Source of the DNA: Candidatus Roizmanbacteria bacterium RIFCSPLOWO2_01_FULL_40_13
Lineage (GTDB): Bacteria; Patescibacteriota; Microgenomatia; UBA1406; GWC2-37-13
Length of the DNA: 64,000 nucleotides
Assembly (NCBI GenBank): GCA_001789745.1
Contig: MGAN01000018.1
Location: 35,002 to 99,001 of the forward strand
Direction of reading: 5' to 3'
The notes under the pieces were generated by a model. It made no database searches. It was not told the origin of the DNA and saw nothing but the letters and a program-made list of their open reading frames with translations. Both the position numbers and the translations under genes were made by a program. Shown here in pieces: positions 39,806 to 42,890 of this stretch (position 1 is its first letter; each line of letters opens with the position of its first letter).

Positions 39806-40016
39806 TGCCGCAGGAGGGAGTCGAAACCTCATGAGGTTGCCCTCAGAGGTTTTTGAGCGGACGTAAAACGTCCACTATAGCCTACGCGCTTGCCCCGTGT
39901 GGGCGAGGAGGGAGTCGAACCCTCACGGTATTTACATACCACAAGTTTTTGAGACTTGCCTGTATACCAGTTTCAGCACTCGCCCTTTCGGGGCCTACCG
40001 GTTCCGCCACCGCGGC
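39806..40016 (-). pseudogene. Split tRNA-Leu-like gene enclosing an intact tRNA-Leu
   Basis: 5' GCCGCGGTGGCGGAACCGGTAGG (40016 downward) and 3' ...CTCAAAAACCTC-TGAGGGCAACCTCA-T-GAGGTTTCGACTCCCTC-CTGCGGC-A; outer acceptor strands GCCGCGG/CTGCGGC pair over 7 positions. Confidence 0.6.
39900..39985 (-). tRNA. tRNA-Leu(CAA)
   Basis: GGGCGAG...CTCGCCC-A; anticodon arm CAAGT-CTCAAAA-ACTTG; GAGGGTTCGACTCCCTC T-arm. Confidence 0.92.
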
Positions 40017-40045: not shown

Positions 40046-41305
40046 TTAATACAAAACTCTAAATCTGATTGTGTCGGGTATTTTTCTTAATTCCTGCAAA
40101 ACTTTTTGGTCATATTTTTTATTCACATCGGTGATCGCATATCCGATTTTAGCATTTGTTTTCAAATATTGGGATAAGATATTTAATTTATACTTAGCCA
40201 TGACGCCATTCAGATTTGCCAAAATACCCGGCACATTCTTATGCAGATGCAGCAATCTATGATGTTTTTTTTTCTTACTAAATCTAATATTGGGTATATT
40301 CGGGCTCCCTTGTGTGTCGCCTGAATTAATATAAGAGATAATTTTTTTGCTAATTTCTTTATCACTGCCTTGAAATACGGCTATACCACGCAGGGTTAAA
40401 AAATCAAGGTAAAATTTTTTGTCTGAATCGGCCAGGATTCCAACCGTATTAAGCCTAGGCATTTTTATTAATCGTTGTCTGGTTCTGGTTGAGAGATTAT
40501 TTACCACTGCTATTTGAGTCTGATGTGCCGTCTTTTCTCCAATCAAAGCGTAACCTTCACGGGTAAATAATTTCTCAATATTGGCTTTGTTTGTCACCGG
40601 TAAATGTGCTTTTATTCTGTTTTTGGGATATGAGAGCGAACTCGGGATTCTATTCACGAATAAAAATTCATCAAAATTCGGAGCTTCATGATCGGCATTT
40701 TTTACCACAGCTTCCCGCCTGATATTCTCAGTGAAAGCAACGAAATGTTTGGCTGCACCCATTGCTTTGATCTGATAATCTGTGAATCCGTCGCCAACTA
40801 CTATCACTTCGCCCCGAAGGCCTAATTTTATAACTGTTTTTACTTTCCCGTCCTTTTTAGATAAAGGGTTATTTTTATCCAACCCGGTTATTTTTCCAAA
40901 TTTGTCAAGCCGAAAGCTGTTGGCGAAGACATTGTCCGGGTTAAGAGAAAATGGCTTGACTATAGGCAGGATAAACTCCTTGAAACCCCCGGATATAATA
41001 TAGATATTTTCTTTATATTGCCGGAAAAATTGACGGTTTCTTTTTATCGATGGTGATATTTTTCCTCGGAGAATTTCTACTACTTTATAAATATGAAGCT
41101 TATTGCCGTGGAGCAGTTTTAACCTTGTTGCGAGACTTCGATCAAAAGAAATCCTCCCTTCCATACCGAGATTGGTAATTTTTTTGATTTGATTAATTAT
41201 CTTTTTCCTGTTTGGATTATTAGCGAGCGCAACTGAGGCCAATTCCTCCAATCCTTCACTTTGTACAAAAGTTGAATCAAAATCGATGATAAAGTATTTT
41301 ATCAT
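40046..41305 (-). CDS. HAD phosphoserine phosphatase-like domain fused to SerA-derived C-terminus (ACT)
   Basis: N-term FIIDFDSTFVQSEGLEELA, VVGDGFTDYQ; C-term HHRLLHLHKNVPGILANLNGVMAKYKLNILSQYLKTNAKIGYAITDV...IPDTIRFRVLY matches SerA ACT pattern. Confidence 0.85.
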   Translation of the reverse strand: MIKYFIIDFDSTFVQSEGLEELASVALANNPNRKKIINQIKKITNLGMEGRISFDRSLATRLKLLHGNKLHIYKVVEILRGKISPSIKRNRQFFRQYKENIYIISGGFKEFILPIVKPFSLNPDNVFANSFRLDKFGKITGLDKNNPLSKKDGKVKTVIKLGLRGEVIVVGDGFTDYQIKAMGAAKHFVAFTENIRREAVVKNADHEAPNFDEFLFVNRIPSSLSYPKNRIKAHLPVTNKANIEKLFTREGYALIGEKTAHQTQIAVVNNLSTRTRQRLIKMPRLNTVGILADSDKKFYLDFLTLRGIAVFQGSDKEISKKIISYINSGDTQGSPNIPNIRFSKKKKHHRLLHLHKNVPGILANLNGVMAKYKLNILSQYLKTNAKIGYAITDVNKKYDQKVLQELRKIPDTIRFRVLY

Positions 41306-41445
41306 ATTAAAAAACCTCCCTTGCGGGAGGAATGCTTGATTGGTAATCGGTTTATTTTTTGCTTATCAGGAGGTCCTCCCCCAAGTAATAATTTCCGGAA
41401 GAACTCTGGGGAGAGTAATTATTCAAAACGTCTATTCTATTATTC
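41305..41445 (-). promoter_or_regulatory. Putative Ser-leader transcription attenuator
   Basis: Leader ORF plus mutually exclusive pairings CTCCCC/GGGGGAG, GGGAGG/CCTCCC and terminator CCTCCCGCAAGGGAGG-TTTTTT immediately before the structural ATG. Confidence 0.7.
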
Positions 41446-41448
41446 ATG
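41353..41448 (-). CDS. Putative leader peptide (31 aa) with Ser-rich stretch
   Basis: MNNRIDVLNNYSPQSSSGNYYLGEDLLISKK*; codons TCT CCC CAG AGT TCT TCC. Confidence 0.6.
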
Positions 41449-42754: not shown

Positions 42755-42762
42755 TTAAATTG

Positions 42763-42865
42763 TATACTCATCTTACTCCGATTTGCAGCTCGTCAGAGCG
42801 AAAAAGCGGATTAGATAAGTATATACTGAGTAACTCGGTTGCAAACCTTAAGTTATCGAAGTATA
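42763..42865 (+). mobile_element. Element family B, copy 2
   Basis: TATACTCATCTTACTCCGATTTGCAGC...TACTGAGTAACTCGGTTGCAAACCTTAAGTTATCGAAGTATA. Confidence 0.85.
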
Positions 42866-42890
42866 AATTTGTACAATTATAATAGATTTT

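Follow-up and report, generated by a model that had tools for sequence, protein, structure and literature searches.

A SerB-SerA fusion that lacks its NAD-binding domain and lies behind a probable serine-codon attenuator: a candidate serine-responsive phosphatase

The window analysed here, a stretch of DNA of 64,000 nucleotides, carries an open reading frame (ORF) that a first-pass annotation had described as a SerB-like phosphatase fused to a SerA remnant without its NAD-binding domain, adding that it could be a serine-sensing phosphatase. This raises the question whether the frame is debris of a lost dehydrogenase or a phosphatase that still uses the regulatory domain of its former partner. 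Profile searches with the ORF bore out the proposed layout at both ends. Residues 1-215 matched the SerB/HAD-IB model TIGR00338 (E 4e-23) with 82.1 bits, which misses the equivalog cut-off of 144 bits, and TIGR01488 with 55.3 bits (cut-off 45). The protein has the fold and the motifs DxDST, S, K and GDGxxD of HAD-IB phosphatases, and a Foldseek search matched this region to solved phosphoserine phosphatases (3kd3, 6hyy). At the other end, residues 316-419 aligned with positions 307-410 of the SerA model NF008759 (E 1e-33), and the ACT domain was recovered by PF22629 with 46.2 bits (cut-off 27). The ACT fold together with its H-x-N and N serine-contacting residues places it among the SerA-type ACT domains, and we predict that it binds serine. 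Neither PF00389 nor PF02826 gave any match in the ORF, and elsewhere in the 1.04-Mb window genome (a metagenome-assembled genome, MAG, of 89% completeness) no NAD domain scored above the curated cut-off, the sole PF02826 trace being a sub-threshold fragment of 50 residues. The protein shares with E. coli SerA the C-terminal tail, the serine site of the ACT domain and, as an eroded remnant, the fold of the substrate-binding domain; judging from the missing NAD-binding domain with its catalytic residues, it is no dehydrogenase. The coordinates of all features are collected in Table 1.

Table 1 Features of the truncated serB-serA locus, in window coordinates
Feature	Position	Strand	Basis
Truncated SerB-SerA fusion gene, 419 aa	40046..41305	(-)	ORF and profile matches; G005 orthologue of same architecture
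SerB-like HAD-IB phosphatase domain, residues 1-222	40640..41305	(-)	Profile matches; 71% identical to G005
SerA substrate-binding domain remnant (N-terminal half), residues 223-312, fast-evolving	40370..40639	(-)	Alignment, HMM, AlphaFold and structure matches
Excision junction and returning helix of substrate-binding domain, residues 313-330	40316..40369	(-)	Alignment; PF02826 searches
SerA-type ACT domain, residues 349-419	40049..40261	(-)	PF22629 match, residue alignment
Leader peptide ORF MNNRIDVLNNYSPQSSSGNYYLGEDLLISKK, Ser-codon cluster at codons 12-17	41352..41447	(-)	Start at 41447
Attenuator strand 2; alternative partners are strand 3 or, at the Ser codons, strand 1	41373..41383	(-)	Strand-pairing analysis
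Terminator hairpin CCTCCC-GCAA-GGGAGG plus T6 (strands 3 and 4), directly next to the start codon of serB	41309..41330	(-)	
tRNA-Leu(caa), right edge of the serC/DUF475-like slot (compare G002/G003)	39899..39985	(-)	Locus comparison

The closest relative is a protein of 425 aa encoded on contig JACQRR010000135 of a MAG from a second Candidatus Roizmanbacteria species (G005; completeness 79%), which has the same architecture and is 60% identical over its full length. The alignment places an equal number of residues across the junction in both proteins. We rejected an assembly artefact because frame and junction are common to these two independent genomes. All other relatives with both ends in one frame are full-length SerB-SerA fusions of ~630 aa, found as expected in the same genus (G002, G003 and G004), in other genera of the family and class, and also in Polaribacter, Muricauda and a MAG contig labelled Burkholderiales. 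For the latter (L003), the CPR-like appearance of the fusion makes a binning error possible. The fusions have the same order of SerB, SerA substrate-binding half and ACT domain and are 43-61% identical to the window protein over the common parts; the window gene differs by the missing NAD-binding domain, the lack of an adjacent serC and an eroded substrate-binding half. In the alignment, the gap opens directly behind 'GIAVF' in the substrate-binding half, closes at the helix that precedes 'INSGDT' and comprises the NAD domain and its flanks, so that junction residues 313-330 of the window protein occupy the site of the PF02826 domain. The excision is as clean as had been proposed. In phosphoglycerate dehydrogenases, the NAD domain sits inserted within the substrate-binding domain, and hence excising it restores an unbroken parent domain. 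Among 83 genomes of the order and 374 drawn from the class, we found no truncated case beyond G005, so two such genes are known.

The identity of the middle region required more care. An HMM of the SerA substrate-binding half matched it in the window protein with an E of 0.26, compared to 0.51 for the best of 200 shuffles; with the middle of the G005 protein the same HMM gave 2e-12, and the match is significant in G005 only. The alignment also shows that the RSR motif of the substrate-binding domain has been lost in the remnant. The proposal that the middle derives from the SerA substrate-binding half therefore holds through the G005 intermediate, the colinearity with the full-length fusions and the AlphaFold model, whereas the window sequence alone gives no proof of it. 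AlphaFold, run on residues 227-419 with a six-sequence alignment, returned a model with a pLDDT of 84.5 and a pTM of 0.82, whose 35 best PDB matches were all phosphoglycerate dehydrogenases (E. coli, Brucella and Ser33 type). Ser33 (8q2i_A) superposes with a TM-score of 0.87 (query), skipping the NAD domain. As the input alignment contains SerA homologues, this model is not fully independent evidence; it relates the middle region to the substrate-binding domain, and the contrary outcome did not appear. The full-length model (pLDDT 76, pTM 0.58) is good for the phosphatase only.

Comparison of the two truncated proteins revealed that their parts evolve very differently. The pair is 71% identical in SerB (56-71% in full-length pairs from the same genus) and 67% in the SerA tail and ACT domain (62-71%), and only 29% in the substrate-binding remnant (53-62%). 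The corresponding dN values are 0.23, 0.21 and 0.86, with synonymous sites saturated. High identity of SerB and ACT next to a low one in the remnant, at saturated synonymous sites, indicates that selection maintains the phosphatase and the ACT domain and not the old dehydrogenase. The label 'remnant' thus fits the decaying substrate-binding part and not the ACT part, which is conserved as strongly as the phosphatase. With the dehydrogenase gone, the substrate-binding part appears to have been released and the ACT domain kept, and this pattern is our main evidence that the ACT domain probably serves the phosphatase. The low dN/dS is compatible both with serine sensing and with a structural role.

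Within SerB, residues D8, D10, E17, R61, S105, K154, D172 and D176 are invariant; we take their catalytic roles from phosphoserine phosphatases generally. E17 and R61, which presumably contact serine as in known phosphoserine phosphatases, are invariant also in the full-length fusions that adjoin serC. In the ACT domain, H355, N357, N375, L381 and T383 align with H344, N346, N364, L370 and T372 of E. coli SerA. The triple alanine mutant of H344, N346 and N364 is feedback-resistant, and L370 and T372 mutants lose serine sensitivity as well (PMC10521649).

Positions 41306-41447 (minus strand), directly upstream of the gene, hold an element that had escaped the first-pass annotation: a leader peptide with Ser codons followed by an antiterminator and a terminator. 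The peptide motif MN.R....NN[YF]SP has a single occurrence in the 64-kb window and none in 100 shuffles, and it precedes serB or serB-serA at ~20 CPR loci of two families. The 13 leaders with a terminator have 3-7 Ser codons each, clustered at codons 12-18. Strand 2 always lies ~60 nt into the leader and pairs with the 5' arm of the terminator. This arrangement of 1:2, 2:3 and 3:4 pairings follows the usual scheme of ribosome-mediated attenuation, in which the Ser codons would be the sensor. Across the 13 loci, strands of the same species paired better than swapped ones for 2:3 and 3:4 (0 of 5000 permutations each) and for 1:2 (P 0.003); the control pairings 1:3 and 1:4 gained nothing from the species' own strands. 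We conclude from this covariation that the region is probably a ribosome-mediated serine attenuator. A search against Rfam returned tRNA only and no match for the leader, which speaks against a riboswitch or other Rfam RNA. Like the his, trp, leu and thr leaders, the element combines a codon-rich leader peptide with an exclusive antiterminator and terminator beside the first gene; it differs in its Ser codons, its place before serB(A) in CPR bacteria, the lack of an Rfam family, and a peptide core conserved beyond the Ser codons. The attenuator is intact upstream of both truncated genes, and free-standing SerB genes in G012, G016 and G018 also have this leader in front of them. In these three genomes no convincing serC relative was detected, and they hold other 2-hydroxyacid dehydrogenases of unassigned specificity. 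A TATAAT-like box lies 6-10 nt before the leader ATG at four further loci (L013, L015, L017 and L022) and near 41447 in the window; at such a short distance, the leader mRNA may be leaderless. The leader motif was also seen before distant SerB-like genes of 27-28% identity (L033:1259-1296 in G020 and L034:1257-1294 in G033).

To place the gene in its locus, we compared it with G002 and G003, naming neighbours for which no family search was made by sequence recognition. There, dnaB is followed by PAP2, by genes for a PfkB-type kinase, adenosylhomocysteinase and a HAD-IA phosphatase, and by a methyltransferase gene on the opposite strand; then come serB-serA, serC, a DUF475-like gene, tRNA-Leu(caa), a gene with a CBS domain and one for a glycosyltransferase. 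In the window, the series is dnaB, PAP2, HAD-IA, methyltransferase, truncated serB-serA, tRNA-Leu(caa), CBS and glycosyltransferase. Judging from these common neighbours, the window gene is orthologous to serB-serA of G002 and G003, and by the same comparison serC and the DUF475-like gene are deduced to be lost from the slot beside it. A serC homologue adjoins the fusion in G002, G003, G004 and G071 and was absent from the window genome (G000), G001 and G005; the SerA NAD domain is likewise absent from the window genome and G005. With serC lost from the locus, the phosphorylated route from 3-phosphoglycerate appears to be gone. SHMT was found in all, so that serine can be made from glycine. 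In G001, of the same genus, the slot holds only a scar in which MKKYFIIDFDPTF (the first 13 serB codons) runs directly into the 31 final codons of the ACT tail; it lies at L035:1466-1593, between the methyltransferase and purB. At window positions 42755-42890, the kinase and adenosylhomocysteinase that lie between PAP2 and HAD-IA in G001-G003 are missing.

The two truncated genes could go back to one excision or to two. In a gene tree of SerB and ACT, G000 groups with G005 (99%), and next with G002 and G003 (97%). The species tree, built from 22 alignment blocks with 5082 columns (mostly ribosomal proteins and RpoB/RpoC, with a few blocks that are probably spurious antisense frames), joins G000 with G002 and G003, and G005 with G001 and G004, all at 100%. 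A gene tree constrained to place the truncated genes as in the species tree was rejected (AU p 0.021). Moreover, the two remnants share 7 derived residues, with 1.8 expected (P 0.0002). Two independent excisions of the NAD domain are disfavoured by all three results, and one excision with later lateral exchange between the sister lineages would be the simplest reading. A species tree from SHMT and SufS was conflicting and was dropped, with SHMT falling into two divergent groups. Identity within the genus is 57-59% between these groups (L090-L096) and 81-90% for the closest pairs inside them, which suggests that a foreign copy has replaced the original one.

How might such a protein work? The reading we favour, with moderate confidence, is a serine-responsive phosphoserine phosphatase that would act in salvage, de novo synthesis having been lost. 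Its ancestor was a bifunctional SerB-SerA fusion with the activities for both the first and the final step of serine synthesis. Once the NAD-binding domain had been excised, the substrate-binding domain formed an uninterrupted spacer by which SerB stayed attached to a presumably serine-binding ACT domain; serC was lost from the same locus. What remains would most likely hydrolyse scavenged O-phosphoserine to serine. The ACT domains would mediate oligomers, and L-serine bound between them would turn the phosphatase down. When charged Ser-tRNA is scarce, the ribosome would stall in the leader, strands 2 and 3 would pair, no terminator would form and the phosphatase would be made. Serine would thus act twice, on transcription through Ser-tRNA charging and on the protein through the ACT domain. 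As the gene still lies behind a Ser-codon on/off switch, its appearance is that of a functional gene for a phosphatase under serine control, not of a dead one. The initial idea of serine sensing is now better supported by residue conservation, selection on the ACT domain and the upstream Ser-codon attenuator, and we predict such sensing. The missed TIGR00338 cut-off, the deletion of the G001 gene and the incomplete window genome count against the favoured reading; its weakest link is the phosphoserine source, as none was identified in the window genome.

ACT domains mediate the subunit contacts of SerA, and many relatives carry SerB without an ACT domain, so sensing is not indispensable. Both points suit an ACT domain that is a dimerisation scaffold only, with the SerA tail holding the phosphatase together and serine having no regulatory effect, and the domain may have been kept for oligomerisation only. 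We nevertheless consider this unlikely, because the ligand-binding positions H355, N357 and N375 are conserved, as are L381 and T383, whose E. coli counterparts on mutation remove serine inhibition (PMC10521649), and because the gene sits behind a Ser-codon leader. That leader, together with E17 and R61 being invariant with the fusions beside serC, also argues against a repurposed enzyme that hydrolyses another phosphomonoester (e.g. phosphothreonine or histidinol phosphate) while its ACT domain senses another amino acid. Such a change would fit a genome without a detectable phosphoserine route and has a precedent in annotated phosphoserine phosphatases of other bacteria that were reassigned as histidinol-phosphate phosphatases (PMC5764234); we judge it rather improbable here.

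Finally, the gene could be decaying, caught at a passing stage of reductive evolution on its way to full loss, as the deletion in G001, the loss of serC and the eroding substrate-binding part might suggest. Intact frames of 419 and 425 codons in two species, SerB and ACT domains that stayed 71% and 67% identical while synonymous sites became saturated, and the preserved attenuator make this very improbable. Serine-responsive salvage thus remains our preferred reading. Joined into one claim, its elements can be put forward only tentatively: loss of an inserted catalytic domain may have left a selectively maintained allosteric phosphoserine phosphatase run by the ACT domain of its lost partner, which sister lineages exchanged as a functional unit and which stands under a previously undescribed CPR serine-codon attenuator for serine salvage.

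A related principle is known from mycobacterial SerB2, in which two N-terminal ACT domains precede the phosphoserine phosphatase, and L-serine shifts the oligomer and inhibits the enzyme (PMC10564941). Both proteins join ACT to a HAD-IB phosphoserine phosphatase, and serine control of the window protein is probable. The single, C-terminal, SerA-type ACT domain of the latter was apparently gained by domain loss from a fusion and is an independent architecture; as the N-terminal tandem is lacking, SerB2 serves as an analogy only. Among the papers we searched, none directly describes SerB-SerA fusions or a Ser attenuator from CPR bacteria.

If our reading holds, the locus is a natural case of allostery outliving its enzyme, in which the last enzyme of the pathway keeps the regulatory domain of the lost first one. 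With full-length, truncated and deleted alleles in one genus, this transition is directly testable. The gene is also a warning for automated annotation, where its C-terminal match would call serA present. The attenuator would be one of the few views of how bacteria with very small genomes regulate their genes; it also hints that the orphan SerB proteins of CPR bacteria serve serine supply. Two further variants of the fusion were observed. In G390 (L081), a SerB-SerA frame of 558 aa has no ACT match, the opposite truncation, and the neighbouring serC is broken by a stop; in G011 (L024), a stop codon between SerB and SerA apparently splits the fusion.
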